Assembly (NCBI RefSeq): GCF_027912415.1
Contig: NZ_CP115175.1
Coordinates: forward strand, 2,604,001 to 2,668,000
Direction of reading: 5' to 3'
Length of the DNA stretch: 64,000 nucleotides
Source of the DNA: Homoserinibacter sp. YIM 151385
GTDB taxonomy: Bacteria; Actinomycetota; Actinomycetes; Actinomycetales; Microbacteriaceae
Shown: in pieces, positions 2,157 through 44,345 of the stretch
Numbering within the stretch: position 1 is the stretch's first letter
How the letters are laid out: each line of letters begins with the position of its first letter
Notes under the pieces: generated by a model
Seen by the model: only the letters and a program-made list of their open reading frames with translations
Told to the model about the DNA's origin: nothing
Databases searched by the model: none
Translations under genes and position numbers: made by a program

Positions 2157-2162
2157 ACCCTA
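2157..2162 (-). promoter_or_regulatory. -10 box TAGGGT for the STAND regulator gene
   Basis: Minus-strand TAGGGT. Its first three bases are the TAG stop codon of the DUF4166 gene. Transcription would start near 2150 and leave a leader of about 40 bases ending in the GGAGG site before the GTG at 2111. No convincing -35 is visible. Confidence 0.45.
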
Positions 2163-2768
2163 GGGGATCGCGTGCTGCCGGGGCGCGATCCGGTAGTCGA
2201 AGGAGCCGGTGTAGCGGAACACCTCGCCGAGGAGCGGCGCGCGCATCCGCAGGTCGACGCGCTGTCGACCCGCCGGACCGATGCGCTCGTCGAGCTCGAC
2301 GACGGCGAGCGGCGGGAGGGGCAGGCGCAGCGGGCCGAGCCGCAGCCAGAGCCGCTCCGAGCGCATCCGCATGCCGCCGTCGACGACGTGGAGCGCGAGC
2401 CGCACCTCGAGGCCGCCGCGGCGGCCCAGCCGGTCGTGGAGCTCGCCGTCGACGACCGACATGCGGTCGAGCATGACCCGCGAGCGTCCCGGGAACTCGA
2501 AGGTGCGACGGGCGCGCAGCCCGTCGCCGTCCGGCGTGTTCGTCGTCGTGAAGGGGATGTCGCGGCCGAGCTCCGGGAACAGCACGCCCCGCCACGCGAG
2601 CCACGACCACAGCGGCCGCAGCCAGCGCACCCGCGAGCCGGCCTCCTCGTACACGCCCGTGCCGTGCCCGACGCAGCCCTCCGGCGGCGCCGAGAAGTAG
2701 GCGAGGAGGCGGGGGTCGAGCTGCGCGAAGCGCGCCCCGAGCACCCGCTGGGTCACCGACTCGGCCAT
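2160..2768 (-). CDS. DUF4166 domain-containing protein
   Basis: 202 residues with no signal peptide or membrane segment. The N-terminal part (VTQRVLGARFAQLDPRLLAYF), the GxGxY turn near residue 38 and the FTTTNTP stretch near residue 75 resemble DUF4166 proteins, which are about 200 residues in actinobacteria and are sometimes fused to saccharopine-dehydrogenase-like domains. No catalytic residues are known for the family. It is read divergently from the DUF6350 gene with a gap of 80 bases. Family assignment is from recognition of the sequence pattern, and function is unknown. Confidence 0.6.
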   Translation of the reverse strand: MAESVTQRVLGARFAQLDPRLLAYFSAPPEGCVGHGTGVYEEAGSRVRWLRPLWSWLAWRGVLFPELGRDIPFTTTNTPDGDGLRARRTFEFPGRSRVMLDRMSVVDGELHDRLGRRGGLEVRLALHVVDGGMRMRSERLWLRLGPLRLPLPPLAVVELDERIGPAGRQRVDLRMRAPLLGEVFRYTGSFDYRIAPRQHAIP

Positions 2769-2835
2769 GAGGGCATTCTGCCTGGGCGGGCGCCGGGCGA
2801 GGGCGTGCCGGGCCGGTGTGCGTCGTCCGCGCGGT

Positions 2836-2841
2836 TAGGGT
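2836..2841 (+). promoter_or_regulatory. -10 box TAGGGT for the DUF6350 gene (leaderless)
   Basis: TAGGGT ends 7 bases before the GTG at 2849, the spacing that puts the transcript 5' end on the start codon. No Shine-Dalgarno sequence is present. Confidence 0.55.
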
Positions 2842-2848: not shown

Positions 2849-4162
2849 GTGACCCGCCGACTCACCGTGCTCTACGCCGCCCTCGAGGCGCTGCTCGCGG
2901 TCGGCATCGGCGTCGCCATCCCTCTCGTGCCGCTCACCGTGCTGTGGGCGGCGGAGTACGGCTTCGGCCCCGACTGGGCGGTGTTCTGGCGCGCCGCCGT
3001 CGACACGTGGCTCATCGGGCACGGGGTCGATGTGACGCTGCGCCTCGACCCGGCGCTCGCCGGGGGGCTGGGCGGGGCGGCGACCGAGCCGGTCGTCGTG
3101 ACGCTGGCGGCGCTCGGCTTCGCCGTCCTGACGCTCCTGCTCGGCGTCCGCGCCGGCGGCCGCGTCGCCGAGACGGGCCACCGGCTCCTCGGGGGCGCCG
3201 TCGCGACGGCGGCCGTCGGCGTGCTCGGGCTCGCGCTCGCGTGGACGGCGGTCCACGAGGCGGCCAGGCCCTCGCTCGTGCAGGCGGGCCTGCTGCCGGC
3301 TGCGATCTTCGGCGCCGGCATCCTCATCGCGGTCCTCCGGGCGGGCCCCGAGGTCGGCCCCGATGCCCCCGGCAGCTCGCTCCGCGACTGGATCGCCGAC
3401 TGGCCGCCGCGCCTGCGCGTCGCCGTCGCGGGCGCGCTGCGTGCGGGCGCCGCCTCCGCCGCGATCGTCGTGCTCGTGTCGGCGGTGGGCGTCGCGGTGC
3501 TCGTCTTCGCCTCCTACGCGGAGATCATCCGGCTGTACGAGTCGCTCCACAGCGAGGTCGCGGGCGGGATCGCGCTGACGCTCGGGCAGCTCGCGGTCGT
3601 GCCCAACCTCGTCATCTGGGCGGCGTCGTGGGCCGTCGGGCCGGGCTTCGCGCTCGGCACGGGCTCCACGATCTCGCCGCTCGGCACGGCCGTCGGGCCC
3701 GTCCCCGCGGTGCCGATCCTCGGCGCCCTGCCCGCAGGCGAGCTCGACTACGGCTTCGCGGCCGTCCTCGTGCCGGTCGCGGCCGCCTTCCTCGCGGGCG
3801 CCTGGCTGCGGAGCGGGCTCGTCCGCCGCATCGACTCGCGGCCGGGCGCGGCCGGCTGGCTGGTCGGGACGGCAGTGGGCGGCGCGCTCGTCGGCGGCGC
3901 CATCATGGGGCTCCTCGCCTGGTGGTCGGGAGGCTCGGCCGGCCCGGGCCGGCTGGTCGAGGTGGGGCCGGACCCGCTGCTCGTCGGCGCGATCGCGGCG
4001 GGGGAGTTCGCCCTGGGCCTCGGCGCGGGGGTCGCGGCGGCGGGGGTCGGGCGGCGCTTCATCGGCGCCGACGACGGCGATGCGGCCGAGATGCCGAGCC
4101 ACGACGCCGAGCGCCGGGGCGAGCCGGCTGCGCCGCTCGGCGGCCCCGACGCGAGCCGCTAG
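2849..4162 (+). CDS. DUF6350 (PerM-like) integral membrane protein
   Basis: 437 residues with about nine hydrophobic helices across the whole length and a short acidic, polar C-terminal tail. In actinobacteria DUF6350 proteins of about 400-440 residues lie directly upstream of purN, as here, and some are annotated as cell-division protein PerM; the role is not settled. The frame could extend to a GTG at 2816, but the GTG at 2849 is preferred because a TAGGGT -10 box ends 7 bases before it and would leave the longer version without a promoter-proximal start. Its TAG stop forms part of the purN promoter. Confidence 0.8.
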
Positions 4163-4165
4163 GCT
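4160..4165 (+). promoter_or_regulatory. -10 box TAGGCT for purN (leaderless), overlapping the upstream stop codon
   Basis: The DUF6350 stop codon TAG plus GCT forms TAGGCT, which ends 6 bases before the purN GTG. This would give a leaderless purNH transcript independent of the upstream gene. Confidence 0.5.
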
Positions 4166-4171: not shown

Positions 4172-4759
4172 GTGCTCCGGCTGGTCGTCCTCATCTCCGG
4201 GGGCGGCTCCAACCTCCGGGCCCTCCTCGAGGCCTCCGAGGACGCCGCCTTCCCGGCCCGCGTCGTCGCCATCGGCGCCGACCGCGACGCGGAGGGCCTC
4301 GCCCACGCCGAGGAGTTCGGCATCCCCGCCTTCACGGTGCCCTTCACCGCCTACCCCGACCGCGAGTCCTGGGGTGCGGAGCTCGTCGAGCAGCTCGGCG
4401 TGTGGGAGCCGGACCTCGTCGTCCTCTCCGGCTTCATGCGCCTGCTCCCGCCCGCCGCGGTCGAGGCGCTCTCGCCGGGGCTCATCAACACGCATCCCGC
4501 CTACCTCCCGGAGTTCCCGGGGGCGCACGGCGTCCGCGACGCGATCGCGGCCGGCGTGACGCAGACGGGCGCGAGCGTCATCGTCGTGGACTCGGGCGTC
4601 GACTCGGGGCCGATCATCGCGCAGGAGCGCGTGGCCGTCCTCCCGGGCGACACCGAGTCGACCCTCCACGACCGCATCAAGCTCGTCGAGCGGCGGCTGC
4701 TCGTGCAGTCCGTCCTCGACATCGCCGACGGAACCATCGACCTGAAGGAGCTCGCGTGA
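4172..4759 (+). CDS. purN: Phosphoribosylglycinamide formyltransferase (GAR transformylase)
   Basis: 195 residues, the usual PurN length. It transfers the formyl group of 10-formyl-THF to GAR, the third step of purine synthesis. The phosphate-binding loop ISGGGSN is at residues 8-14. The catalytic residues Asn106, His108 (NTHPA) and Asp144 (VDSGVDSG) fall at the same numbers as in the E. coli enzyme. The GTG start at 4172 has no Shine-Dalgarno sequence but lies 6 bases after a -10 box. The stop overlaps the purH start by 4 bases (GTGA), so translation is coupled. Confidence 0.97.
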
Positions 4760-7652: not shown

Positions 7653-8515
7653 GCGCGGCCTGCTTCCTGCTCGGGGGATTCCACCATGGCCTCCGCGAGC
7701 GCCTCGCGCCAGTCGCGGAGCGGCGGGATGCCGGCCGCGGCCCACGAGCCGTGGCCGAGCACGGAGTACGCGGGGCGCGGGGCGGGCGTCGGGAAGGCCT
7801 CGCTGCCGACGGGACGGACGCGGTCGGGGTCCTCCCCGTCGAGCTCGAGGACGGCGCGCGCGAGCTCGACGCGGCTCGCCGCGCCCGAGGCGGTCGCGTG
7901 GTGGACGCCGGCGGGCGCACCGGCCTCCACGAGGCGCAGGATGCCGTCCGCGACCTCCGGCGCCCAGCTCGGCTGGCCGACCTGGTCGGCGACCATGCTC
8001 AGCTCGGGGTGGCGGGCCGCGAGTCGGCGGACGAGGGCGGGGAACCCGGCGTCGCCGCCGTACAGCCAGGCGGTGCGGACGACGAGCGCCCCAGGGTGGG
8101 CGGCGCGGGCGAGCCGCTCGCCCGCGGCCTTCGTGCGCCCGTAGGCGCCGAGCGGCGCGAGCGGGGCGTCCTCGGGGTAGGGCGAGGCGGCGCGGCCGTC
8201 GAAGACGTAGTCGGTGGAGACCTGCACGAAGCGCGCTCCCGCCGACGCCGCGGCCATCGCGACGTGCTCCGCGCCGAGGGCGTTGACGGCGTGCGCCGCA
8301 GGCTCGGCGGCCTCGGCGTCGTCGACCGCCGTCCAGGCGGCCGAGTTGACGACGATGTCCGGGCGGAAGCCGGCCACGGCATCCCGCACCGCGCCGCGTG
8401 ACCGGATGTCGAGCTCGCGGGAGCCGGGGGCGCGGACCTCGTGGCCGGCCCCGGCGAGGGCTGCGGCGAGCGCGCGGCCGAGGAGGCCCGTGCCGCCCGT
8501 GACGAGCCAGCGCAT
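7649..8515 (-). CDS. rmlD: dTDP-4-dehydrorhamnose reductase
   Basis: 288 residues, SDR superfamily. It reduces dTDP-4-keto-L-rhamnose with NAD(P)H, the last step to dTDP-L-rhamnose. The nucleotide loop GGTGLLG is at residues 7-13, STDYVFDG places Thr101-Asp102-Tyr103, and the YxxxK pair is Tyr125/Lys129. The ATG overlaps the rmlB stop by one base (TGATG), and its own stop overlaps the glycosyltransferase start. Its substrate needs the RmlC 3,5-epimerase, which is not encoded in the window. Confidence 0.95.
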   Translation of the reverse strand: MRWLVTGGTGLLGRALAAALAGAGHEVRAPGSRELDIRSRGAVRDAVAGFRPDIVVNSAAWTAVDDAEAAEPAAHAVNALGAEHVAMAAASAGARFVQVSTDYVFDGRAASPYPEDAPLAPLGAYGRTKAAGERLARAAHPGALVVRTAWLYGGDAGFPALVRRLAARHPELSMVADQVGQPSWAPEVADGILRLVEAGAPAGVHHATASGAASRVELARAVLELDGEDPDRVRPVGSEAFPTPAPRPAYSVLGHGSWAAAGIPPLRDWREALAEAMVESPEQEAGRA

Positions 8516-9501
8516 CAGTCGAGCCCGGCGCGCTGCTTCAGCGGCTCCCACCAGTCGCGGCGCTCGCGATACCAGTCGACGACCGCGGCCAGCCCCTCGC
8601 GGAACCCGACGCGCGGCGCGTAGCCGAGTTCGCGCCGGATCTTCGCGATGTCGACGCTGTACCGGCGGTCGTGGCCCTTGCGGTCCTCGACGGGCTCCAC
8701 GGAGGACCAGTCGCGGCCGGTCGCCTCGAGCAGCAGCTCGGTGATCTCGCGGTTCGAGAGCTCGGTGCCGCCGCCGATGTTGTAGATCTCGCCCGCGCGC
8801 CCGCCCTGGAGCACGAGCGCGATGCCGCGCACGTGGTCGTCGACGTGCAGCCAGTCGCGCACGTTGCCGCCGTCGCCGTAGAGCGGCACCGGCCGGCCGT
8901 CGAGCAGGTTCGTCACGAACAGCGGGATGAGCTTCTCGGGGAAGTGGTACGGCCCGTAGTTGTTCGAGCAGCGGGTGATCGACACGTCGAGCCCGTGCGT
9001 GCGGTGGTAGGAGCGGGCGAGGAGGTCGCTGCCCGCCTTCGAGGCCGAGTACGGGGAGTTCGGCTCGAGCAGCTGCTCTTCCGTCCACGAGCCCTCGTCG
9101 ATCGAGCCGTACACCTCGTCGGTCGAGACGTGCACGAACCGGGGGATGCCGGCCTCGACGGCGGCGTCGAGGAGCCGCTGGGTGCCGCCGACGTTCGTGT
9201 CGACGAAGGGCGCCGCATCCCGCACGGAGCGGTCGACGTGGGACTCGGCGGCGAGGTGCAGGATCGCGTCGTGCCCGGGGAGGAGGCCGGCGAGCAGCTC
9301 TCGGTCGCGGATGTCGCCGTGCACGAAGCGGTAGCGCGGCGAGTCCTCGACGCTCGCGAGGTTGGCCGGGTTGCCCGAGTAGGTGAGGGCGTCGAGCACC
9401 GTCACCTCCGAGCCCTCGAGCCCGGGCAGCTCGTCGGCGAGGGCGCGCCGAACCAGGTTCGAGCCGATGAATCCGGCACCGCCGGTCACGAGGACGCGCA
9501 T
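8515..9501 (-). CDS. rmlB: dTDP-glucose 4,6-dehydratase
   Basis: 328 residues, extended SDR. It converts dTDP-glucose to dTDP-4-keto-6-deoxyglucose. The NAD loop GGAGFIG is at residues 7-13, and the 4,6-dehydratase signature STDEVYG gives Thr127-Asp128-Glu129 with Tyr151/Lys155 (YSASK). SISRCSNNYGPY-type and QPVPLYGDGGNVRDWL-type segments are also conserved. The ATG lies 6 bases after a TAGGAT -10 box and has no Shine-Dalgarno sequence, so the rmlB-rmlD-GT operon seems leaderless. Confidence 0.96.
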   Translation of the reverse strand: MRVLVTGGAGFIGSNLVRRALADELPGLEGSEVTVLDALTYSGNPANLASVEDSPRYRFVHGDIRDRELLAGLLPGHDAILHLAAESHVDRSVRDAAPFVDTNVGGTQRLLDAAVEAGIPRFVHVSTDEVYGSIDEGSWTEEQLLEPNSPYSASKAGSDLLARSYHRTHGLDVSITRCSNNYGPYHFPEKLIPLFVTNLLDGRPVPLYGDGGNVRDWLHVDDHVRGIALVLQGGRAGEIYNIGGGTELSNREITELLLEATGRDWSSVEPVEDRKGHDRRYSVDIAKIRRELGYAPRVGFREGLAAVVDWYRERRDWWEPLKQRAGLD

Positions 9502-9507: not shown

Positions 9508-9513
9508 ATCCTA
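9508..9513 (-). promoter_or_regulatory. -10 box TAGGAT for rmlB (leaderless), overlapping the marR stop codon
   Basis: Minus-strand TAGGAT made of the MarR gene TAG stop plus GAT. It ends 6 bases before the rmlB ATG. This separates the rml operon from the regulator transcribed just upstream. Confidence 0.5.
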
Positions 9514-9969
9514 GCGGCGGTGCCCGTCCGAGGGCCGAGGGCCGGTGAGGCGTCGGAGGATGTCGCGGAGCCCCTCGACCTGCTCGGGGTCGAGCACGTG
9601 CAGGACGTGACGGCCGAGCGCGTCCCGGAGCGATGCCTCCGCATCCGCCCACGCGCGCTCTCCCGCCGAGCTGATCGAGATCTCGACGCCGTTCTTCAGG
9701 CGGGTGCGCGCGACGAGCCGCTGGTCCTCCATGCGGGTGAGGAGGTGCGAGAGGCGCCCGCGGTCCCAGCCGGTGGCGGCGGCGAGGGCGTTCTGCCTCA
9801 GCGTGCCGCCCGCCGCGTGCAGGTGGATCAGGACGGTGCGTTCCGGCTCGCCGACGTCGGACGCCGCGTTCACATCGCGGATGATCGAGGCCCGGAGGTG
9901 CTCGTTGGCGTGCTTCCAGGCCAGCCAGAGCTGCACGACGTCCATCGTCGAGTCCTCGTCCCCGGTCAT
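9511..9969 (-). CDS. MarR-family transcriptional regulator
   Basis: 152 residues. Helical dimerisation ends flank a winged helix-turn-helix at about residues 45-105 (ERTVLIHLHAAGGTLRQNALA, then GWDRGRLSHLLTRMEDQRLV, then the wing TRLKNGVEISI). MarR proteins usually repress a divergent detoxification gene and release on ligand or oxidant binding. The ATG at 9969 is chosen because GAGAGGAG lies just before it; the longer upstream frame has no such site. It is divergent from the DUF2316 and aldo-keto reductase genes, with an inverted repeat in the 91-base gap. No cysteine is present, so a thiol switch is unlikely. Confidence 0.9.
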   Translation of the reverse strand: MTGDEDSTMDVVQLWLAWKHANEHLRASIIRDVNAASDVGEPERTVLIHLHAAGGTLRQNALAAATGWDRGRLSHLLTRMEDQRLVARTRLKNGVEISISSAGERAWADAEASLRDALGRHVLHVLDPEQVEGLRDILRRLTGPRPSDGHRR

Positions 9970-11458: not shown

Positions 11459-12316
11459 GTGAAGGGGATCATCCTGGCCGGGGGCACCGGCACGCGCCTG
11501 CACCCCATCACGCAGGGCATCTCGAAGCAGCTCGTGCCCGTGTATGACAAGCCGATGATCTACTACCCGCTCGCGACGCTCATGTCGGCCGGCATCCGCG
11601 AGATCCTCGTGATCACGACGCCCGGGGATCGCGCCGCCTTCGAGCGCCTGCTGGGCGACGGCTCGGGGCTCGGCATCCGCCTGGCCTACGCGGTGCAGCC
11701 CGAGCCGGAGGGCCTCGCGCAGGCCTTCCTCATCGGCGCCGACTTCATCGGCGGCGACGACGTCGCGCTCGTGCTGGGCGACAACGTCTTCCACGGCCTC
11801 GATCTCGAGGGCGCGGCCGAGGCGCCGCTCGACGGCGCGCGTATCTTCGCCTACCCGGTCTCGAACCCGAGCGCCTACGGCGTCGTCGAGTTCGACGCGG
11901 AGGGCCGGGTGCTCAGCATCGAGGAGAAGCCCGAGCACCCCCGCAGCCGCTACGTCGTGCCGGGCCTCTACTTCTACGACGCGGACGTCGTCGAGATCGC
12001 GCGCGGCATCCGTCCGAGCGCCCGCGGCGAGTACGAGATCAGCGAGGTCAACGCCACCTACCTCGCGCAGGGACGCCTCCACGTGCAGCCGCTCGATCGC
12101 GGCACCGCGTGGCTCGACACGGGCACGGTGGAGTCGATGGTCGCCGCGACCGAGTACGTCCGGGTCATCGAGGCGCGGCAGGGCCACAAGATCGGCTGCA
12201 TCGAGGAGATCGCCTGGCGGCGCGGCTGGATCGACGACGCGCGGCTGCTCGCGCACGCCGATGCACTCGCGAAGAGCGGCTACGGCGACTACCTGCGCGG
12301 GCTGCTCGACTCGTGA
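11459..12316 (+). CDS. rmlA: Glucose-1-phosphate thymidylyltransferase
   Basis: 285 residues. It makes dTDP-glucose from glucose-1-phosphate and dTTP, the entry to dTDP-rhamnose. [16 protein letters not shown] holds the nucleotide loop (residues 8-16), followed by Lys23, [17 protein letters not shown] for the metal and substrate site, and the C-terminal signature GTAWLDTGT. The GTG at 11459 gives the canonical MKGIILAGG start and sits 6 bases after a -10 box. The stop overlaps the next acyltransferase (GTGA). It is separated from rmlBD by the MarR cassette and reads away from them. Confidence 0.96.
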
Positions 12317-14415
12317 CCCGCGGCTTCCGCCCGGAGATCCAGGCACTTCGCGCGCTCGCCGTGCTCCTGGTGGTGGGCTTCCATCTCTGGCCGGAGCGCC
12401 TCTCGGGCGGCTACATCGGCGTCGACGTCTTCTTCGTCATCTCCGGCTACCTCATCACCGACCACCTCGTGCACGGGCTCGAGCGCGAGGGCAGGATCGA
12501 CGTCATCCGATTCTGGGGACGCCGCATGCGGCGTCTGCTCCCCGCGGCGCTGCTCGTGCTCCTCGTCACGCTCGCCGCGGTGCTGCTGCTCGCGCCGTCG
12601 ACCAGGGCCGCGCAGTTCGCGACCGAGATCGGCGCCGCGGCCGTCTACGCGCTGAACTGGGTCCTGGCCGCGAACGCCGTCGACTACTTCGCCGAGAGCA
12701 ACCTCGTCTCACCCGTGCAGCACTACTGGTCGCTGTCCGTGGAGGAGCAGTTCTACTTCATCTGGCCGCTGCTGCTCGTCCTCGCGGCGATCCTCGCGCG
12801 CCGTGCCGGCCGCCGGCTCCGCCCGGTGCTCGTCGCGCTGCTCGCCGTCCTCGGGGCCGCCTCCTTCGCCGTGTCGATCGTCATGACGGCGGCCGACCAG
12901 CAGTTCGCGTACTTCGCGACGCCGACCCACGTCTGGGAGTTCGCACTCGGCGGGCTGCTCGCGCTCGCCGGCGCCCGGGTGACCGCCGTCGCCGCGAGGA
13001 TGCCCGGGCTCGCCGCCGCGGCCTCCTGGGCCGGGCTGCTCGCGATCCTCGTCTCGGCGCTCGTCTTCGACGGGGCGACCGCGTTCCCGGGCTGGATCGC
13101 CGTGCTTCCCATCGGCGCCGCGGTGCTCGTGATCGCCGCCGGGATGCCGGGGACCCGGCTCTCCCCGGCCCCGCTGCTCCGCCTCCGGCCCGTGCAGTGG
13201 GTCGGCGACGTCTCCTACTCCCTCTACCTCTGGCACTGGCCGCCCATCGTGCTGCTGCCGTTCGCGCTCGGTCGCGACCTCGGCACCCTCGACAAGCTCC
13301 TCATCCTCGCCGCGGTGCTCGTGCTGGCGGGCGCGACGAAGCGCATCGTCGAGGATCCGCTCCGCGGACTCCCGCTGCTCGCCCGCGGTCGGCTCCGCTC
13401 GCTCGTCGCGGGGGCGGCGGCGAGCGCGCTCGTGCTCGGGATCGCGGCGGTCCCGGTGGCCATGGCGAGCGCGGCGACCGCCAACGCGCTCGCCTACTCG
13501 GAGGACCGCGTCGCGGCGATGCGGGCCGGCGACGCGCCCTGCTTCGGCGCCGCCGCCGCCCTGGAGGGCGCCGACTGCCCCGACTCCCACCTCGTGGACC
13601 CGCAGCTCGGCCCCTCGGCGGCCGTCGACGACTCCCAGACGGCCTGGCTGGAATGGAAGGCCGAGCGGGATCCGTTCTTCCGGCTGGACTGCGAGATGGC
13701 GACCCCGGACATCGAGGAGTGCCGCGGGGGATCGGCGCAGCCGAGCGCGACGATCGCGCTCGTCGGCGACTCCCACGTCAACCACCTGCTCCGCCCGGTC
13801 ATGGAGCTCGCCAAGGCGCACGACTGGCAGGTCCTCGAGTACATGAAGGGCTCCTGCCGGCCGACCGCGCCCGACTACGCGAGCAACGTGCCGAAGGAGC
13901 AGCGCCCGGATTGCACGCGCTGGAAGTCGGAGATCGGCGAGTTCGTCGCCGATCGCCCCGACATCGACCTCGTGGTGACCTCGGGAGCCGTGCAGGGCTA
14001 CGCGGTGCGGCCGGACGGGCCGAGCGGCGAGGCGGTCGCGGACGCCTTCGGCGCGCTCTGGACCCAGTGGCGCTCCGCGGGGATCCCGGTCCTGGCGGTG
14101 TCGGACGTCCCCCGGCCCCGGGGCCGCGACATCCCCGACTGTATCGTCGAGAGCGGCGTCGACGAGGATCCCTGCGCCATGCCGCGCGACGAGATCGTCG
14201 CGGAGGACGGCATCATGATCGCCGCGTCGCGGGCGGACGACCGCGGGATCGGCTCGATCGAGCTCTACGACCGCTTCTGCGACGCCGAGACGTGTCATTT
14301 CGTCGTCGGCGGCGTCATCACCCACAAGGACAACAACCACATGACGTCGACCTTCGCCGCCACGCTCGCGCCGGAGCTCGACGAGCGGATCCGAGCGCTC
14401 CTCGACGCGGGCTAG
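12313..14415 (+). CDS. Membrane O-acyltransferase with C-terminal SGNH domain (OafA/OatA-like), copy 1
   Basis: 700 residues. The N-terminal acyltransferase-3 domain (about 1-370, ten or eleven helices) opens [23 protein letters not shown] and includes [20 protein letters not shown] and [13 protein letters not shown]. The extracellular SGNH hydrolase-like domain has GDSH with Ser487 and the terminal D673-x-x-H676 pair (DNNHMT). In this family acetyl or other acyl groups are passed across the membrane to a sugar. The GTG overlaps the rmlA stop, so it may modify the rhamnose-containing glycan. The window has two further homologues. The TAG stop contributes to the next promoter. Confidence 0.92.
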
Positions 14416-14445
14416 CATGGGACGGCGCCGAGAGACGGCGCCGTC
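14413..14445 (+). promoter_or_regulatory. -10 box TAGCAT and adjacent 9-bp inverted repeat
   Basis: The acyltransferase stop TAG plus CAT forms a -10 box (14413-14418). Directly after it GACGGCGCC (14421-14429) and GGCGCCGTC (14437-14445) form a perfect inverted repeat with a 7-base loop, covering the expected start of transcription near 14425. It could be an operator or a hairpin at the 5' end of the leader of the next gene. Confidence 0.5.
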
Positions 14446-14462
14446 GAGCTCTCGGAGTGCCC

Positions 14463-19143: not shown

Positions 19144-20132
19144 TCGCCCGCCTCCGCGCCGCCCTCGGCGCCATCCGACTCCACGAGTCCGCGACCGCCG
19201 AGTCGCTCGCGGCCGGCCGCATCCTCGTGCTCGCGATCTGGATCGTGTTCCTCGCGCAGGATCCCGTCTTCTCGCTGCTGCACCTGCCGATCGAGCTGTT
19301 CCAGCCCTACGGGGTGTTCCGGCTCGCGCCGGACGGCGTCTGGGCGGCGCTGCTCACGCCGGCCGGGCTCTGGTCGCTCAAGGGCGGCGCGATCGCGCTC
19401 GCGGCCTGGGCGCTGCTCGGCCTCCGCGGCGCCCGCGGCGCGGCCCTCGCGCTCGTCGCCGTCGGGCTGCTCTACCTCGAGGTGAAGAAGGGCTTCGGCG
19501 GGCACTGGGATCACCGCGAGCTCACCCTCGTCTACGTCACGGGCGTGCTCGCGCTCACGCCGGCCTGGGATGCGCTCGCCCTCCGGCGGGGGCCCGCGCC
19601 GGCCCGACGAGCCGGCGCCCACCGGGCGGGGCTCCTCGCGGTCTCGCTCGTCGTCGTCATCCAGTACCTCTTCATCGGCATCGCGCGCCTCGCCATCGGC
19701 GCCCCGGGCGTGTTCCTCGGGGGCACGCTCCAGAACTGGATCGAGAACCGCAACCTCCGCCCGAATCCCTACGGCTTCGACCTCGGCACGCTGTTCCTCG
19801 ACCCGGTCTGGGCGGTGCCCCTCGACCTGCTCTTCCTCGGCGGCACGCTGCTCGAGGTGGGCGCCGTGCTCGTGCTCTTCCTGCGGCCGGGCTGGCTCAA
19901 GCTCGCGCTCGTGGTCGGCTTCCTCGTCTTCCACCTGTCGATCTTCGTGCTCATGAACGTGTCCTTCGCCGAGAACATGGTGCTCGTCCTCCTCTTCTTC
20001 GACCTCGCGGCGCCGCTGCGGGCGATCCGGCGCGCCCGGGCGATCGAGCGGCCCGCCGACCCGGTGCGGCCCGAGCCCGAGCCCGCCGGGCGCCGCGGCG
20101 CGCTCGCGGCCTGGTTCGCGGGGCCCTCGTGA
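19140..20132 (+). CDS. HTTM-like polytopic membrane protein
   Basis: 330 residues with about seven to eight helices. The loop KKGFGGHWDHRELTLVYVTG matches the conserved His/Asp-rich loop of HTTM proteins, bacterial relatives of the vitamin-K-dependent gamma-glutamyl carboxylase membrane domain. QNWIENRNLRPNPYGFD and a C-terminal FAENMVLVLLFFDLA follow. The soluble carboxylase part is absent, and biochemical roles of standalone HTTM proteins are unknown. GTG at 19140 overlaps the partner gene stop, and its own stop overlaps the next acyltransferase start, so three genes are coupled in series. Confidence 0.75.
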   Translation: MIARLRAALGAIRLHESATAESLAAGRILVLAIWIVFLAQDPVFSLLHLPIELFQPYGVFRLAPDGVWAALLTPAGLWSLKGGAIALAAWALLGLRGARGAALALVAVGLLYLEVKKGFGGHWDHRELTLVYVTGVLALTPAWDALALRRGPAPARRAGAHRAGLLAVSLVVVIQYLFIGIARLAIGAPGVFLGGTLQNWIENRNLRPNPYGFDLGTLFLDPVWAVPLDLLFLGGTLLEVGAVLVLFLRPGWLKLALVVGFLVFHLSIFVLMNVSFAENMVLVLLFFDLAAPLRAIRRARAIERPADPVRPEPEPAGRRGALAAWFAGPS

Positions 20133-22279: not shown

Positions 22280-22327
22280 CCCCAGGGCCGGCATTCCGGT
22301 CCTCCCGCCACCTGGAGCACCGACGAC

Positions 22328-32145: not shown

Positions 32146-33671
32146 GCGCGACGATGGAGTCCGTCGTCGGCGAGCCGACCGCGGATCGCCTCGCCGAGCG
32201 CGAGCGGCTGCTCACGGCCCAGGCGCAGCGACTCGCGACGGCGGCCGGCGCGATCGGCGTCGACGTCGATCCCGGGCTCGGCGACGCGCGCGACCGCTCG
32301 ATCGCGGCTCTCGGCCCGCTCGCCGCGGCGGTGAGCGAGGAGCGCGACGACGCCCACCTCTGGCTGCTCTTCGCCGCGATGTCGGGCGGCTTCCCCGGCG
32401 TCGGCGACATGGAGGCCGCGATCCGCATGCGCGATCGCATGTCGCGCGACGAGTTCTTCGACTGGTTCATCGCCGCGAGCGCGCTCCCCGCGACCTGGGG
32501 CGGCACGGCCTTCAGCGAGCTCTCGGTCGTCGCCGATCGCGTGCTCGTCGACGTGAACAGCTGCGCCCGCTCGGATCGGCACACCGGCATCCAGCGCGTC
32601 GAGCGCGAGACGCTGCCGCTCTGGTCGCGCGATCACGGCGTCGAGCTCGTCGCCTGGACGGTGCGCTCGGGCATCTACCGCGAGCTGCGCGAGGCGGAGA
32701 CCGAGCGCGTCCTCGAGTGGGCGGGCGGGGGAGGGGGCTCGAGCCACCTCGACGAGCGCGCCGACGAGGGGCTCAAGCTCGTCGTGCCGTGGCGCACGAC
32801 CCTCGTGCTGCCCGAGGTCGCCGACTCGCGGCAGTCCTCGCGCCTCGAGGCGCTCGCCCGCTACTCCGGCACCCGCGTCGCGATGATCGGCTACGACGTC
32901 ATCCCGCTCACGAGCCCCGAGCTGCTGCCGCGCGAGACGGGCCGCGACTTCCTCGACTACCTCGGCGTCGTCCGCGGTGCGAGCGCCATCGCGGGCATCA
33001 GCCGCTCCGCGACCGAGGAGTTCGCGGGCTACGTCGACGCGCTCGGTGCGGAGGACGGCCCCGAGCTGGTGACCTGCGAGCTGCCGGCCGCGCTGCCGGC
33101 GGCCGCCCCGACGGAGGAGGCGGCCCGCACCGAGGCCGCCGTCGTGCTCTGCGTCGGCAGCCACGAGCCGCGCAAGAACCACGGCGCCGTGCTCCACGCG
33201 GCCGAGCGGCTCTGGCGCGAGGGGGCCGACTTCGAGCTCTGGTTCTTCGGCGGCCACGGCTGGGGCACCGACTTCGACGAGCTCGTGGATCGCGCGAAGA
33301 AGCGCGGGCGGCGGGTGCGCGTCGAGCGCGCCGTCTCGGACCGCATCCTGTGGGAGGCCCTCCGCGACGCCCGCTTCACGGTCTTCCCCTCGCTCCACGA
33401 GGGCTACGGCCTGCCCGTCGCCGAGTCGCTCGCCTTCGGCACCCCCGTCATCACCACCGACTACGGCTCGACCCGCGAGATCGCCGAGCGCGGCGGCTGC
33501 CTGCTCGTCGACCCGCGCTCGGATGACGAGCTGCACGACGCCATGCGCCGCCTCCTCCTCGACGACGAGGAGCTCGGCCGCCTCTCCGCGGAGGCCTCCC
33601 GCATCGAGGTGCGCACCTGGGAGCAGTACGCCGACGAGCTCTGGAGGGCGCTGGTGCCGGATGTCGCGTGA
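32142..33671 (+). CDS. GT4-type glycosyltransferase with helical N-terminal domain, set A
   Basis: 509 residues. An N-terminal helical domain (about 1-125) is followed by the GT-B fold starting RVLVDVNSCARSDRHTGIQR, where THTGIQRV-type sequence replaces the usual glycine loop. The C-terminal domain has CVGSHEPRKNHGAVLHAAER and the E-x7-E donor motif HEGYGLPVAES. The homologues at 41407 and 42912 share the helical domain and the TGIQR/TGVQR motif. The GTG overlaps the stop of the small coiled-coil gene. Donor and linkage are unknown; GDP-deoxyhexose from the neighbouring gmd genes is possible. Confidence 0.85.
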   Translation: MSATMESVVGEPTADRLAERERLLTAQAQRLATAAGAIGVDVDPGLGDARDRSIAALGPLAAAVSEERDDAHLWLLFAAMSGGFPGVGDMEAAIRMRDRMSRDEFFDWFIAASALPATWGGTAFSELSVVADRVLVDVNSCARSDRHTGIQRVERETLPLWSRDHGVELVAWTVRSGIYRELREAETERVLEWAGGGGGSSHLDERADEGLKLVVPWRTTLVLPEVADSRQSSRLEALARYSGTRVAMIGYDVIPLTSPELLPRETGRDFLDYLGVVRGASAIAGISRSATEEFAGYVDALGAEDGPELVTCELPAALPAAAPTEEAARTEAAVVLCVGSHEPRKNHGAVLHAAERLWREGADFELWFFGGHGWGTDFDELVDRAKKRGRRVRVERAVSDRILWEALRDARFTVFPSLHEGYGLPVAESLAFGTPVITTDYGSTREIAERGGCLLVDPRSDDELHDAMRRLLLDDEELGRLSAEASRIEVRTWEQYADELWRALVPDVA

Positions 33672-34671
33672 GCTCCCCGCCCGCGCCCGGCTCGCGGCGC
33701 TGACGCCCCGCCGTCGCCGCGCGCTCGGCGCCCGCAGCCGGCTCCTGCTCGAGGCGGTCGGCCGCCCCGTGAGCCGACCCGCCCTCGGCGCGCTGCTCTC
33801 GGCGCTCGAGGCGCTCGACGAGTCCGAGCTCTGGCTCGCGCTCGCGGTGCTGCACGCCGAGCTGCCGACCCCGAGCCAGGTGCGCCGCCTGCGCCGCTCG
33901 CGCGAGCTCGACGGCGGCTGGGGCGCGCTCGACCAGCTGCTCGAGGACGCGCCGCGGCGCCGCGGCGAGCGCGGTGCGCCCGTCCCCGTCCGCGTCGTCA
34001 GCGACGTCGTCCTCATGGACGTCACCGGCCTCCTCCCCGGCGACTCCGTCGCCCCCGGCCTCGGCGCCGCCCGCCAGCTCGCGCGCGCCTGGAGCCGCGA
34101 GGCCGGCATCCTGCCGGTCGCCTGGGGCGGCTCGCGGCGGCGGCTCCGCGAGCTCGAGGACGAGGAGCGGCGCGCCATCGGGCTCGCCGCGCCGGCCGGC
34201 CGCCTGCTCGGCGCGACCGAGACGGCGCTCGTGCCGCACCGCGCCGCCTACCTGCTCGTGGGAGCCGTGCAGCTGCCCCGCTCCGCCGAGCGGATCATCG
34301 CACTCGGCGAGTCGAGCGCGAACCGCAGCGGCTCGGTCGGCTACGGCCTCGGCCCGCTGCTGCGGGCGGAGGAGCACCCCCCGCAGAAGGGCGAGGCGCG
34401 CTTCTCCTGGCACCTCGCCGCGCAGCGCTCGCTCGAGCGGCTCGTCGTCCTCGGCGACGGCGACACCCGCGAGTACGAGGGCTGGCGCCGGATGCTCTCC
34501 GCCGTCGGCCGCCCCGGGCCCGAGCTCCACGGCTTCGCCCTCCCCGCCGACGCCGCGGGTGTCGCGGGCAGCATCACCGCCCCCGGCTCCTCCGCCGCAT
34601 GGCTCGCGCTCGCGGGCGACGCGGGCGCGGTCCTGGGCCTCGCGGGCGGCCGCACCGCGGCGGCCCCCTAG
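33661..34671 (+). CDS. Half glycosyltransferase: GT-B paralogue lacking the C-terminal donor domain
   Basis: 336 residues. Its helical N-terminus (ESELWLALAVLHAELPTPSQ) and first Rossmann domain align with the protein at 42912-44342: VVLMDVTGLLP against VLVDVHDT, and EYEGWRRMLSAVGRPGPELH against EYRGWRAMLPAAGIPGPEVV. The sequence then stops shortly after. The TGIQR motif, the SHEPRKN loop and the E-x7-E donor site are all missing, and no remnant of them follows before gmd. The frame is intact with normal codon use, so it looks like a maintained pseudoenzyme or subunit, not decay. It overlaps the preceding GT gene by 11 bases. The TAG stop forms part of the gmd -10 box. Confidence 0.75.
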   Translation: MSRELPARARLAALTPRRRRALGARSRLLLEAVGRPVSRPALGALLSALEALDESELWLALAVLHAELPTPSQVRRLRRSRELDGGWGALDQLLEDAPRRRGERGAPVPVRVVSDVVLMDVTGLLPGDSVAPGLGAARQLARAWSREAGILPVAWGGSRRRLRELEDEERRAIGLAAPAGRLLGATETALVPHRAAYLLVGAVQLPRSAERIIALGESSANRSGSVGYGLGPLLRAEEHPPQKGEARFSWHLAAQRSLERLVVLGDGDTREYEGWRRMLSAVGRPGPELHGFALPADAAGVAGSITAPGSSAAWLALAGDAGAVLGLAGGRTAAAP

Positions 34672-34674
34672 AAT
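34669..34674 (+). promoter_or_regulatory. -10 box TAGAAT for gmd, overlapping the half-GT stop codon
   Basis: Stop TAG plus AAT. The leader of about 28 bases contains CAGGGAG before the ATG at 34710. Confidence 0.5.
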
Positions 34675-34709
34675 CGTCTGCGGACCACGCCACCCACGTC
34701 AGGGAGATC

Positions 34710-35693
34710 ATGACTCGCGCGCTCATCACCGGTGTCACCGGCCAGGACGGCTACTACCTCAGCAAGCTGCTGCTCGAGAAGGGCTACGAGGTGTACGGCC
34801 TCGTGCGCGGCCAGAACAACCCCAAGATCGAGTTCCTCAAGCGGGAGCTGCCCGAGGTGAGGATCCTCACGGGCGACCTGCTCGACACCTCGAGCCTCAT
34901 CCGCGCCCTCGGCGCCGCGCAGCCCGACGAGTTCTACAACCTCGGCGCCATCAGCTTCGTCGCGTACTCGTGGGAGAACGCCTCGCTCACGAGCGATGTC
35001 ACGGGCAAGGGCGTGCTCAACGCGCTCGAGGCCGTCCGCCTCCACGCGGGCGACGACGTCGCGAAGGTGAAGTTCTACCAGGCGTCGAGCTCCGAGATGT
35101 TCGGCAAGGTCCAGCAGGTGCCCCAGTCGGAGGAGACCCTCCTCTGGCCCCGATCGCCCTACGGCGTCGCGAAGGTCTTCGGGCACTACATGACGATCAA
35201 CTACCGCGAGTCCTACGGCATGCACGCCTCGAGCGGCATCCTGTTCAACCACGAGTCGCCCATGCGCGGGCCGGAGTTCGTGACCCGCAAGATCAGCCTC
35301 GCGGTCGCCCGCATCGCGGCGGGCCTGCAGGATCAGATCTCGCTCGGCAACCTCGACGCGAAGCGCGACTGGGGCTTCGCGGGCGACTACGTCGACGCCA
35401 TGTGGCGGATGCTGCAGCAGCCCGAGGGCGACGACTACGTCGTGTCGACGAACGAGACGCACTCGGTGCGCGAGTACCTCGACATCGCCTTCTCGCACGT
35501 CGGCATCGAGGACTGGGAGCGGCACGTCTACCAGGACCCGCAGTTCTTCCGCCCCGCGGAGGTCGACCTCCTCATCGGCGACTCCACGAAGGCTCGCGAG
35601 CAGCTCGGCTGGGAGCCGAAGGTCAGCTTCCCCGAGCTCGTGCGCATGATGGTCGACGCGGACGTCGCACGCGTGCGCGAGCAGACGAAGTAG
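34710..35693 (+). CDS. gmd: GDP-mannose 4,6-dehydratase, copy 1
   Basis: 327 residues. It makes GDP-4-keto-6-deoxy-D-mannose from GDP-mannose. [16 protein letters not shown] is the NADP loop, [13 protein letters not shown] follows, and the catalytic residues are Ser127 and Glu129 (SSSEMFG) with Tyr151/Lys155 (SPYGVAK). E. coli Gmd has Thr132 at the position of Ser127. [17 protein letters not shown] is the GMD signature. The start is ATG after AGGGAG. GDP-mannose would come from the manA and phosphomannomutase genes at the right end. A second copy follows 10 bases downstream. Confidence 0.92.
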
Positions 35694-35703
35694 CCCGCGC
35701 GTC

Positions 35704-36675
35704 GTGCCCGTCGCGCTCCTCACCGGCATCACCGGGCAGACCGGGGGCTACCTCGCCGAGCAGCTGATCGGCGCGGGCTGGACGGTGCACGGCGTCGTCC
35801 GCGACGCCGACGAGGCGGCGCCCTCGCTCGCCGCGCGCTCGCCGCAGGCCCTCCTGCACTCGGGCGACCTCGGCGACGGGGCGCGCATGCGGGCGATCGT
35901 CGACGAGACCGAGCCGGATGCGGTCTTCAACCTCGGCGGCATCAGCTCGGTCGCCTACTCCTGGGCGCACCCGGAGGAGACGGCGCGCATCACGGGGCTC
36001 GGCGTCGCCGCGATCCTGGATGCGGGTCTCGCCCTCCAGGACCGCCTCGGCCGCCGCGTCGCGGTCGTGCAGGCCTCGAGCGCGGAGATCTTCGGCGACG
36101 CGGCCGAGGTGCCGCAGCGCGAGTCGACGCCCGTGCGGCCGGTCAACCCCTACGGCGCCGCGAAGGCCTTCGCGCACCACCTCGTCGGGGTGTACCGGGG
36201 TCGCGGCCTCGCGGCCTCCGCGTGCATCCTCTACAACCACGAGTCGCCGCGTCGTCCGGAGGCCTTCGTGACGCGCAAGATCACGGCGGGCGCCGCCCGC
36301 ATCGCGCGCGGCGAGCAGGAGTCGCTCTCGCTCGGCAACCTCGACGCGGTGCGCGACTGGGGCTGGGCGCCCGACTACGCGGATGCGCTCCGGCGCGCCG
36401 CGGAGACGGACACGCCGGGCGACTTCGTCGTCGCGACGGGCGAGGCGCACACCGTGCGCGACTTCGTCGACGCGGCCTTCCGCGCCGCCGGCATCCCGGC
36501 GTGGCATCCCCTCGTGCACCTCGATCCCGCCTTCGCCCGACCCGCCGACGCCGCGGCGCTCGTGGGCGACGCGAGCCGGGCCCGCGAGGTGCTCGGCTGG
36601 GCGCCGACGCGCAGCTTCGACGAGACCGTCGCCGCCATGGTCGACGCGGATCTCGGCGAATCCCCGGCGAACTGA
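35704..36675 (+). CDS. GDP-mannose 4,6-dehydratase-like protein, copy 2
   Basis: 323 residues. It has the same SDR plan: [16 protein letters not shown] (Asp of the usual GQDG replaced by Thr), [14 protein letters not shown], Ser126 and Glu128 (SSAEIFG), Tyr150/Lys154 (NPYGAAK) and [17 protein letters not shown]. The signature is that of GMD and not of the Rmd reductase, although a shift of activity after duplication is possible. GTG at 35704 has no strong ribosome-binding site and the gene is only 10 bases after gmd, so it is probably cotranscribed. Its product, if it is a GMD, duplicates copy 1. Confidence 0.82.
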
Positions 36676-41410: not shown

Positions 41411-42915
41411 GCGCGGCTCCGGCCGCGGCGGTCGCCGGGGACGGAGTCGTCGGCACGCCCGCCGAGGCGCTGCGCGCCCGGCTCCTCGCGGTCGCGCCGC
41501 ACCTCCTCCCGGCCGGCGAGCCGGTGCCCGAGGGCGGGCCCGGGTCGCTGCTCGCGAGGCTCGCGGATGCCGTCGCCGCCGAGCCGACGGGCGCGCGCCT
41601 GTGGGTGCTCGCGAGCGCGGCGGCGGCCGCCTACCCCACCTCGGAGGAGCTCGAGGGGCTCCGCCGCGCGCTCGAGCTCGCGGCGCCCGGCGAGCGGCTC
41701 GGCGCCGTGCTCACGGCCGTGGCGCCCGCCGCGGCGTCCGTGCGCGGCGGCCTCGTCACGGCGGAGGCCGTCGAGCTCGCACTCGTCGACGTCGACTTCT
41801 GCGCGACGAACGCGCACAACACCGGCATCCAGCGCGTCGTCCGCAACACCGTCAAGCACTGGCCGGCCGAGGCGGTCGAGCTCGCCGCCTGGGCGCCCGA
41901 CGGCAGCGGCTACCGCCGCCTCACGCCCGCGCAGCGCGAGCTCGCGACGGCCTGGCGCTCCGGCATGGACTCCGTGCGCGCCGACACCTCGGACGCGCCC
42001 CTGCTCATCCCCGTCGGCGGCGCCGTGCTCATCCCCGAGGTGCCGGGCCGCGACCGCATCCCGCGTCTCGCCGCGATCGCCGAGCACTCGCCCGCGCGCG
42101 TCGGCCTGATCGGCTACGACGCGATCCCCATCGTGAGCGCCGAGACGGTGAGCGACGAGGAGTCCGACCGCTTCGCGCACTACCTCGCGATCGTGAAGCA
42201 CGCGGATGCGGTCTCCTGCATCAGCGAGACGACGGCCGAGGAGTTCCGCGGCTTCGGCGCGGCGCTCGCGGCGCAGGGGCTGTCGGCGCCAGACGTCGTG
42301 GCGCAGCCGCTGCCCGCCGTGCCGCCCGTGCCGCTCGATCCCGGGGCCGCCGCGCCGGGGCCGCCGCGCGAGCGCCCGCTCGTGCTCATGGTCGGCAGCG
42401 TCGAGCCGCGCAAGAACCAGGAGGGCGTGCTCAGCGCCGCCCGCATCCTCTGGGGCGAGGGGCTCGACTTCGAGCTGCGCTTCATCGGGGGCGGCACGGC
42501 GTGGTACCTGCACCGCCTCCGCGCGCTCCTCGCGCCGCTGCGCGCGCCCGGACGGCACGTCGAGCTGCTCGTCGGCGCGCCCGACGAGCTCGTGCAGGCC
42601 TCCTATCGCGACGCGCGAGTCGTCGCCTTCCCCTCGCTGCAGGAGGGCTACGGCCTCCCCGTCGCGGAGGCGCTCGCGACCGGCACGCCCGTCGTGACCA
42701 GCGCCTACGGCAGCACGGCCGAGATCGCCGCGGCCGGCGGCTGCCTCGTGGTCGACCCGCGCGACGACGACGCGATCGCCGCCGCGCTGCGCGCCGTCCT
42801 CGTCGACGAGGAGGTGCACGCCCGGCTGCTCGCGGAGACGGGCGCGCGCCCGGCCGGCAGCTGGGCGGCCTACGCCGCCGAGGTCTGGTCCGAGCTCGCG
42901 GGGGCCGCCCGATGA
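41407..42915 (+). CDS. GT4-type glycosyltransferase with helical N-terminal domain, set B first
   Basis: 502 residues. A helical N-terminal region (1-125, ARLWVLASAAAAAYPTSEEL) is followed by LALVDVDFCATNAHNTGIQR at the start of the GT-B fold. The C-terminal half has MVGSVEPRKNQEGVLSAARI and the donor motif QEGYGLPVAEALATGTPV, both glutamates present. It is homologous to the enzymes at 32142 and 42912. GTG at 41407 overlaps the coiled-coil gene stop, and the ATG of the next GT overlaps its own stop (ATGA). Substrates are not predictable. Confidence 0.85.
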   Translation: MSAAPAAAVAGDGVVGTPAEALRARLLAVAPHLLPAGEPVPEGGPGSLLARLADAVAAEPTGARLWVLASAAAAAYPTSEELEGLRRALELAAPGERLGAVLTAVAPAAASVRGGLVTAEAVELALVDVDFCATNAHNTGIQRVVRNTVKHWPAEAVELAAWAPDGSGYRRLTPAQRELATAWRSGMDSVRADTSDAPLLIPVGGAVLIPEVPGRDRIPRLAAIAEHSPARVGLIGYDAIPIVSAETVSDEESDRFAHYLAIVKHADAVSCISETTAEEFRGFGAALAAQGLSAPDVVAQPLPAVPPVPLDPGAAAPGPPRERPLVLMVGSVEPRKNQEGVLSAARILWGEGLDFELRFIGGGTAWYLHRLRALLAPLRAPGRHVELLVGAPDELVQASYRDARVVAFPSLQEGYGLPVAEALATGTPVVTSAYGSTAEIAAAGGCLVVDPRDDDAIAAALRAVLVDEEVHARLLAETGARPAGSWAAYAAEVWSELAGAAR

Positions 42916-44342
42916 GCGCCCGCTCCCTCGGCACGGGCACCGCCGCGCTCGTGCGCGCGCTGCTGCCCGGGGAGGAGCCCGCCGGCACCGACGCGGCGCG
43001 ACTCGAGCAGCTCGCGGCCGCCCTCCCGCAGCCCGACGCCGCGCAGTCCTGGCTGCTCCTCGCGGTGCTCGACCGCCGCCTCCCGCGCTCGGAGGAGGTC
43101 GACGCCTTCCGCCGCCAGGCCCGCCACGACGGCCTCCGTGCCGCTGCCGCCACCGTGCTGGCGGGCCGCCGCCATCCCGCGCGCTGGCTGGATCCGCCCG
43201 TCCAGGTCCTCGCGGACGCCGTGCTCGTCGACGTGCACGACACCGCGAGCTCGACGCTCGCGACGGGCGTGCAGCGCCTCGCGCGCGCGATCGGCGACCG
43301 CTGGCTCGAGCGGGGCGTGCAGCTCGTCGGCTGGAACAGCGCCCGCTCGGCCCTCGTCCGCGTCGATCACGGCGCCTGGCGGGAGGGCCGCCGCCGCGGC
43401 GCCCTCGGCCGTGCGCCCGTCGTGCCCTGGGGCGGCGCCTACGTCCTCACCGAGGTGGTCGGCGAGGGCGAGCGGAGCGCCCGGATCCAGGCGCTCGCCC
43501 GCTGCTCGGGTGCCCGGACGATGCTCGTCGGCGCCGACGCGATCCCGCTCACGGCCGCCGAGACGACCGGCTCGCGGATGCCGGGCGTCTTCGCGAAGTA
43601 CCTCGCGGCCGCGGCGCACATGGACGTCGTCGCCGCCATCTCGGGCGCGGCGGCGGCGGAGTACCGCGGCTGGCGCGCGATGCTGCCGGCCGCCGGCATC
43701 CCCGGTCCGGAGGTCGTCGAGGTGCCGATCGCGGAGGAGCTCGGCGAGCTCGATCCCTCGGCGCGCTTCCCGGCCGAGCTGCGGTTCGTCGTGCACGACG
43801 AGGAGGGCGCCCTCCCGCTCGTGCTCTGCGTCGGCAGCCACGAGCCGCGCAAGAACCACCAGGCCGTGCTGCACGCGGCAGAGCTGCTCTGGCGCGAGGG
43901 GCGGCGCTTCTCGCTCGCCTTCGTCGGAGGCAACGCCTGGCGCTCGGAGGCCTTCCGCGCCCGGCTGCTCGAGCTGCGCGAGGCCGGACGACCCGTCGCG
44001 GCGCACCGCGGCGTGCCCGACGCGGAGCTGCGCTGGGCCTACCGCCTCGCACGCCTCACGGTCTTCCCCTCGCTCGACGAGGGCTTCGGGCTCCCCGTCG
44101 CGGAGTCGCTCGCGGCCGGCACGCCCGTCGTCACGACGCGCTACGGCAGCACCGCCGAGATCGCGGCGGAGGGCGGCTGCGTGCTCGTCGACCCGCGCGA
44201 CGACCGCGACCTCGCGGCCGGCATCCGGGGCCTCCTCGCCGACGACGCCCTCCTCGCGCGCCTGCGCACCGAGGCGGCCGCCCGCCCGCCTCGCACGTGG
44301 GACGACTACGCGCTCCGCCTCTGGTCGACCCTCATGCCGTAG
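42912..44342 (+). CDS. GT4-type glycosyltransferase with helical N-terminal domain, set B second
   Basis: 476 residues. It has the same plan: helical N-terminus (AQSWLLLAVLDRRLPRSEEV), VLVDVHDTASSTLATGVQR, EVVGEGERSARIQAL, CVGSHEPRKNHQAVLHAAEL and the E-x7-E motif DEGFGLPVAES. It is the closest relative in the window of the half glycosyltransferase at 33661. The ATG overlaps the preceding GT stop. The TAG stop is part of the -10 box for the ABC transporter genes, so set B is its own transcription unit. Confidence 0.85.
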   Translation: MSARSLGTGTAALVRALLPGEEPAGTDAARLEQLAAALPQPDAAQSWLLLAVLDRRLPRSEEVDAFRRQARHDGLRAAAATVLAGRRHPARWLDPPVQVLADAVLVDVHDTASSTLATGVQRLARAIGDRWLERGVQLVGWNSARSALVRVDHGAWREGRRRGALGRAPVVPWGGAYVLTEVVGEGERSARIQALARCSGARTMLVGADAIPLTAAETTGSRMPGVFAKYLAAAAHMDVVAAISGAAAAEYRGWRAMLPAAGIPGPEVVEVPIAEELGELDPSARFPAELRFVVHDEEGALPLVLCVGSHEPRKNHQAVLHAAELLWREGRRFSLAFVGGNAWRSEAFRARLLELREAGRPVAAHRGVPDAELRWAYRLARLTVFPSLDEGFGLPVAESLAAGTPVVTTRYGSTAEIAAEGGCVLVDPRDDRDLAAGIRGLLADDALLARLRTEAAARPPRTWDDYALRLWSTLMP

Positions 44343-44345
44343 ACT
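44340..44345 (+). promoter_or_regulatory. -10 box TAGACT for wzm-wzt, overlapping the GT stop codon
   Basis: Stop TAG plus ACT. The leader of about 55 bases ends in TCTGGAG before the TTG at 44407. Confidence 0.5.

Follow-up and report, generated by a model that had tools for sequence, protein, structure and literature searches.

The stretch of DNA analysed here, referred to as the window, comprises 64,000 nucleotides (G000:C1:2604001-2668000; 74.4% GC) of Homoserinibacter sp. YIM 151385, whose genome of 2.88 Mb is contained in a single contig of 73-74% GC. The window contains seven gene borders at which a TAG stop codon is also the first half of a TAGNNT hexamer, and these seven hexamers are very probably the -10 promoter boxes of the genes that follow (Table 1). 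Genes were called with our own program, which relies on codon likelihood and a small Shine-Dalgarno (SD) bonus and contains no promoter term; the called genes add up to 96% of the window and, in the genome sample described below, to 92%. An earlier, sequence-only reading of the window had listed the seven hexamers, and direct inspection of the letters finds all of them at the positions and on the strands reported, while the caller shows that every hexamer starts with the TAG stop of a called gene and that the next gene is on the same strand (7/7).

Seven TAGNNT stops in the window

The stop-to-start distances across the seven sites are 9, 9, 38, 47, 48, 51 and 64 nt and, judged by sequence criteria, the sites are predicted to form two classes: two leaderless sites and five candidate leadered sites with an SD-like sequence. 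The leaderless signature, TANNNT some 12 bp upstream of the start codon, is present at 4160 and 9508, in both of which T1 of the box lies at -12 and 6 nt separate the box from the start codon; the AGGA that is counted as SD-like at the 9508 site falls within TAGGAT itself. The other five sites do not show leaderless spacing, with 41-67 nt between box and start codon (at 2157-2162 the downstream start is 48 nt past the stop). Their hexamers, TAGAAT twice, TAGACT, TAGCAT and TAGGGT, are each enriched in promoter orientation, and each of the five carries GGAG, GGGAG or GGAGG ahead of the start.

Table 1. Shared stop/box hexamers of the window, with the neighbouring genes and SD-like sequences.
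Feature	Position	Strand	Description
TAGGGT	2157-2162	-	TAG ends DUF4166 gene (2160-2768); candidate -10 box (leadered) of 3-2111
GGAGG	2116-2120	-	SD-like, in predicted leader of 3-2111
DUF6350 (PF19877)	2849-4162	+	Gene upstream of purN (caller and Pfam)
TAGGCT	4160-4165	+	TAG ends DUF6350 gene; predicted -10 box (leaderless) of purN, whose GTG is at 4172
purN	4172-4759	+	Phosphoribosylglycinamide formyltransferase (TIGR00639), predicted leaderless
rmlB-like	8515-9501	-	NDP-sugar dehydratase/epimerase family gene, predicted leaderless
TAGGAT	9508-9513	-	Stop of MarR-type gene and predicted leaderless -10 box of rmlB-like gene (ATG at 9501)
MarR-family regulator	9511-9969	-	Upstream of rmlB-like gene
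TAGCAT	14413-14418	+	TAG ends acyltransferase-SGNH gene (12313-14415); candidate -10 box (leadered) of 14463-15965
GGAG	14454-14457	+	SD-like, before 14463-15965
TAGAAT	22274-22279	+	TAG ends acyltransferase-SGNH gene (20129-22276); candidate -10 box (leadered) of LPG_synthase_TM gene, whose TTG is at 22328
GGAG	22314-22317	+	SD-like, before LPG_synthase_TM gene
TAGAAT	34669-34674	+	TAG ends 33661-34671; candidate -10 box (leadered) of GDP-mannose dehydratase-like gene, whose ATG is at 34710
GGGAG	34702-34706	+	SD-like, before GDP-mannose dehydratase-like gene
TAGACT	44340-44345	+	TAG ends glycosyltransferase gene (42912-44342); candidate -10 box (leadered) of ABC-2 permease gene, whose TTG is at 44407
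GGAG	44396-44399	+	SD-like, before ABC-2 permease gene

Among the 48 window genes with a usable neighbour there are 14 TAG stops, seven of them followed by NNT (7/14), which is the proportion that had been estimated from the letters; all seven belong to the 11 TAG stops that are followed by a same-strand gene at a distance of 6 nt or more. The proportion exceeds both an assumed T frequency of 12.8% (P = 0.0008) and the TAG rate of the genome sample, 38/277 (P = 0.0013), although these P values are post hoc and were computed on the discovery window itself; the measured T frequency is 13.6% in the sample and 13.2% on the + strand of the window. The window is also unusually rich in such stops, with 7/11 compared with 33/129 outside (P = 0.009).

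TAGNNT stops and leaderless boxes across the genome

An independent sample of the same genome, consisting of 1.2 Mb in 60 stretches that exclude the window and contain 1125 usable gene ends, showed the same preference. The sixth base was T in 33/129 TAG stops with a same-strand gene 6 nt or more downstream, in contrast with 3/87 with a convergent gene at such a distance (Fisher P = 9e-6), and the same-strand value was higher than that of TGA stops in this context (32/313, P = 9e-5). The excess peaked at a stop-start distance of 9-10 nt (14/18 vs 19/111 at the other distances of at least 6 nt); with the window included, 16 of the 42 TAGNNT stops before a same-strand gene have a distance of 9 or 10. 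A second excess, again outside the window, was found at 20-80 nt, where the values were 12/42 for TAG and 12/133 for TGA (P = 0.003), and at all distances of at least 11 nt TAG-NNT remained more frequent than before convergent genes (19/105 vs 3/87, P = 0.0013). The 66 TAGNNT boxes that occur 20-90 nt before a start comprise 17 on the stop, 47 past the stop and 2 within the upstream gene; by that count they are not separable from TAGNNV (63, of which 38 are on the stop), because a TAG near the end of a gene is often the stop of that gene.

Orientation and spacing support the reading of the hexamers as genuine -10 boxes. Intergenic TANNNT occurred 445 times in 74.4 kb read in promoter orientation but 98 times in 93.4 kb of pooled control (reversed same-strand gaps and convergent gaps), a 5.7-fold difference in density, and TAGAAT, TAGCAT and TAGGAT were present 18, 16 and 14 times, respectively, in promoter orientation vs 0 each in the controls. 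At the 1162 called starts of the sample and window together, TANNNT begins at -12 in 132 and at -13 in 49 cases (181 in total), compared with 0-10 per position from -50 to -15, and the first triplet of these leaderless boxes is TAG in 135/181. An SD-like site precedes 15 of the 181 box genes and 575 of the 981 genes without a box, the caller's bonus applying to both groups. Over the whole genome TAGNNT-N6-ATG was found 172 times and the reversed pattern 10 times. The five candidate leadered boxes of the window stand at distances from the start where TAGA[AC]T is found as well: of 48 such hexamers no more than 150 nt from a start, 27 are 20-79 nt and 16 are 10-19 nt ahead of it. It could be argued that TAG boxes are favoured by the reading frame that precedes them; this was rejected, as the third box base is G in 74/94 boxes with a same-strand upstream gene and in 61/87 of the others (P = 0.23). 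The G is thus independent of an upstream frame, and TAG looks like a preference of the promoter.

The position of the upstream stop was examined at the 94 leaderless boxes, window included, that have a same-strand upstream gene. The stop falls exactly on the box in 17, earlier in 73 and past it in 4, and apart from the 17 exact coincidences no stop lies within 3 nt on either side. The upstream gene has at least 100 codons in 16/17 shared cases, and in two of the 17 the coding score is weak (13 and 30, with a threshold of 12). Frames that reach a leaderless box end in-frame on it in 17/21 cases, or 17/20 if the box is TAG or TAA. Reading past 142 TAG/TAA boxes in the off-frames 1 and 2 meets the next stop after a median of 152 and 484 nt, respectively; as off-frame reading runs on for so long, in-frame capture would be the cheap outcome, which fits the 17/21. 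Overlap between the stop and an SD sequence was not found at 14 of the 17 shared boxes, which have no SD-like site; the remaining three score by AGGA only and are all TAGGAT.

The purN junction and other genomes

The sole junction sampled deeply was that of purN, for which the best 80 of 534 passing loci and two further loci, selected through PurN and mostly from Microbacteriaceae, provided 81 usable relatives after one incomplete locus had been dropped. A -10 box is kept upstream of purN in 81/81, at -12 in 70 and at -13 in 11. The state of the upstream stop was assigned in two ways, one using the frame in which DUF6350 matched best and the other codon likelihood; the two methods agreed in 69/81 relatives, and 12 were set aside. 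Of the agreed relatives, 28 have the stop on the box, 37 ahead of it and 4 beyond it. The DUF6350 frame alone gave, for the 81, 29 on, 39 before, 12 past and 1 none, and codon likelihood alone 33, 40, 4 and 4. On a quick PurN tree of the 69 rows and the window the stop state changed at least 12 times. At purN, therefore, the promoter is the constrained element and the stop the variable one. The DUF6350 gene itself had a tblastn match in 80/81 usable loci; the count is of matches within the locus, adjacent to purN or not, and a few of them end far from purN.

Four further junctions were read by eye in the loci fetched: rmlB (30/30), ABC-2 (30/30), the GDP-mannose dehydratase (GMD)-like gene (24/30) and LPG_synthase_TM (7/21). 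Many of these have a -10-like box that is not shared with a stop, an impression from reading by eye and not a formal count, and in many of the 30 rmlB loci a -10-like box appears, also by eye, farther upstream with a leader. The hexamer TAGACT occurs at -12 in the rmlB loci L160 and L172, where it is also scored as a stop, and TAGAAT recurs, again scored as a stop, at the LPG_synthase_TM junction of relative L250.

Six comparison genomes of 51-72% GC, five from the same family (one of them from the same genus) and one from the same order, were represented by five samples of 200 kb and one of 151 kb. Leaderless boxes precede 6-22% of their starts, and shared stop-boxes number 0/17, 2/12, 0/12, 2/15, 3/12 and 1/5; the total of 8/73 compares with 17/94 here (P = 0.27). 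Frames reaching a leaderless box end in-frame in 8/13. Sharing of stop and box thus exists in other genomes but looks weaker there, and across the six no dependence on GC could be demonstrated. A caller-free phase test based on G/C third positions was run on 120 family genomes, with figures taken from G000 (this genome), G001 (the same genus) and G002 only. In this genome the hits numbered 52 in phase 0, 32 in phase 1 and 42 in phase 2, with 17, 5 and 22 in reversed controls. In the sample and window 42/46 of the hits are at a called start and 40/46 are not shared boxes, so the test has little power, and one place may count in several phases.

A scan of 60 genomes from across the phylum compared TAGNNT-N6-ATG with the reversed pattern, which is a crude control. 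The forward and reversed counts were 172/10 in G000, 210/74 in G129, 99/11 in G134, 138/34 in G149, 33/4 in G145 and 74/19 in G127, and many of the 60 genomes are near or below 1:1; these uneven ratios indicate that the trait is lineage-dependent. In G134, G149, G145 and G127, which belong to other families of the phylum, the forward pattern is about 4 to 9 times as frequent as the reversed one (17 times in G000), and these are apparently further lineages rich in leaderless TAG boxes.

Origin of the shared hexamers

We propose that the promoter comes first: the hexamers are housekeeping-sigma -10 boxes of the downstream genes, and the stops have been captured opportunistically, an explanation to which we assign a probability of about 0.83. 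TANNNT, here mostly TAGNNT, would serve the housekeeping sigma factor as the -10 box of the gene that follows. At 73-74% GC, stops would be scarce outside such TA-rich boxes, and an upstream frame that reached the downstream promoter would terminate at the box if the TAG were in frame; in either of the other two frames, reading would as a rule continue deep into the next gene, an outcome that selection should disfavour. The geometry of a leaderless promoter would then fix the stop-to-start distance at 9-10 nt, and at the five leadered sites the box may drive an ordinary leadered transcript with an SD-like site. The positions, the statistics, the spacing, the scarcity of SD sites at box genes and the retention of the purN box where the stop has gone are observations, while promoter activity, the transcription start points and the selective reason are what we infer. 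Sharing does shorten the gene borders, in keeping with the compaction that the sequence-only reading had envisaged.

A number of findings weigh against promoter-first capture. With all contexts pooled, TAG-NNT outside the window amounts to 38/277 (13.7%), which equals base composition (T 13.6%). The sequence-only reading had itself named such equality, counted genome-wide, as the result that would speak against it, and had expected more TAG-NNT than composition predicts; the pooled figure literally gives that equality, as it averages a same-strand excess and a convergent deficit, and the effect outside the window is visible on stratification only. At distances of at least 11 nt the excess over TGA is modest (19/105 vs 31/304, P = 0.04), and in the same 105 stops T is also raised at +4 (17/105; 9 at +5, 6-8 at +7 to +9 and 11-13 at +10 to +14), so that the long-distance excess of T is not unique to +6. 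In-frame ends at 17/21 exceed the one-third of a purely passive model, and selection on frame must therefore be assumed. In the six comparison genomes the same-strand and convergent values, 30/152 and 6/62, differ in the same direction, but not significantly (P = 0.11), G001 of the same genus shows 0/17 shared boxes, and the low-power phase test gives no phase-0 excess in G001 (35, 36, 44) or G002 (32, 32, 37), which lends no support to in-frame enrichment in relatives. Finally, a -35 element was looked for at the TAGNNT stops through its consensus, TTGACA, and the best match at 16-19 bp was no better than in controls. It should be emphasized, however, that the lack of this element is expected of TANNNT promoters and is neither positive evidence nor a reason to exclude the SigA/RpoD class; RpoD models match a sigma factor encoded in this genome.

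One alternative for the leaderless sites, which we regard as unlikely, is a hexamer selected for three roles at once: -10 melting, ribosome termination on the read-through message and, through the 6-7 nt that separate box and start in leaderless genes, a gap of 9-10 nt that would permit reinitiation. The downstream gene would then have leaderless and coupled polycistronic modes of expression, and such selection would account for the 17/21 in-frame ends instead of one third. A functional coupling, in which the hexamer is kept so that the upstream end and downstream expression depend on each other, for instance through termination and reinitiation on read-through mRNA, draws on the 16/42 stops at a distance of 9 or 10 and on in-frame ends above one third both here and in the six other genomes (8/13), but is unlikely, as the purN stop is off the box in 41/69 agreed relatives that retain the box, five of the seven window sites have a gap of 38-64 nt and an SD-like site of their own, and the leaderless sites join genes of no obvious shared function (MarR then rmlB; DUF6350 then purN). 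The purN data thus leave unsupported the coupling of termination to the promoter that the sequence-only reading had put forward. Its further suggestion that terminating ribosomes cover the promoter is likewise unsupported, as terminating ribosomes occupy RNA and would not cover the DNA of the promoter. Chance, in which T after TAG-NN follows base composition and the hits were hand-picked, matches the pooled 38/277, but is highly improbable and was rejected on the orientation and spacing controls outside the window, namely 33/129 against 3/87 and the peak at 9-10 nt. Least credible of all is a stop-codon context in which a sixth-base T aids release-factor termination or blocks readthrough independently of any promoter, as it has nothing in its favour beyond the excess itself, which does not occur where the next gene is convergent (3/87) and is strongest at leaderless spacing.

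Leaderless genes marked by TANNNT about 12 bp upstream have been described (PMC3160421), and the TANNNT promoters of Mycobacterium tuberculosis have no -35 motif (PMC3898074). The leaderless 'TA-led' genes of high-GC Actinobacteria share with the boxes reported here the motif, the spacing, the paucity of SD sites and the missing -35, and two of our seven sites fit; these two studies appear to treat the promoter alone, however, and the term 'stop codon' is absent from both main texts. The overlap of stops with SD sequences (PMC2784483) likewise makes the stop double as a signal for downstream expression, with stop usage shifted at particular spacings, but that signal is RNA and acts in translation, whereas the signal described here is an element of promoter DNA, and the leaderless box genes mostly lack an SD site. 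The 4-nt ATGA start/stop overlaps follow the same economy, an existing signal supplying most of a second one, and are explained by their easy origin, as the start codon gives three of the four bases; in contrast with the promoter and stop considered here, they join two translation signals (PMC12548453). In M. tuberculosis TANNNT is depleted from coding sequence in all frames, which explains the tendency of reading frames to stop at a box or ahead of it; gene ends do not appear to be treated in that work (PMC10653884). No description of -10/stop sharing as a genome-wide trait was found in the open-access literature searched, which leaves most subscription papers outside. Leaderless TANNNT promoters are already known.

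If promoter-first capture is true, promoters and not release factors determine part of the TAG usage of GC-rich genomes that are rich in leaderless genes; outside the window, 33/277 TAG stops are TAGNNT hexamers with a same-strand gene 6 nt or more downstream. For annotation, TAGNNT-N6/7-start between two genes would flag an internal promoter, and two same-strand genes separated in this way need not form one operon.

Some smaller observations concern stops and neighbouring genes. Overlapping convergent genes in the sample have 36/56 gene ends in TAG, 19 in TGA and 1 in TAA, a bias at tail-to-tail overlaps that possibly stems from the self-complementary CTAG, which gives a 4-nt overlap with TAG on both strands. 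At L027:3845-3850 a TAGAAT that is a gene stop lies shortly ahead of a sequence that we take to be tRNA-like, possibly a tRNA promoter shared with a stop. In the window, the two genes encoding fusions of acyltransferase-3 and SGNH lie less than 10 kb apart (12313-14415 and 20129-22276) and both terminate in a TAGNNT box, and two other neighbours of shared boxes, 14463-15965 and 33661-34671, have no Pfam match at 0.001. The GMD-like gene belongs to an adjacent pair (34710-36675) whose members are 46% identical over the matched part, and such side-by-side pairs are also present in several family genomes.

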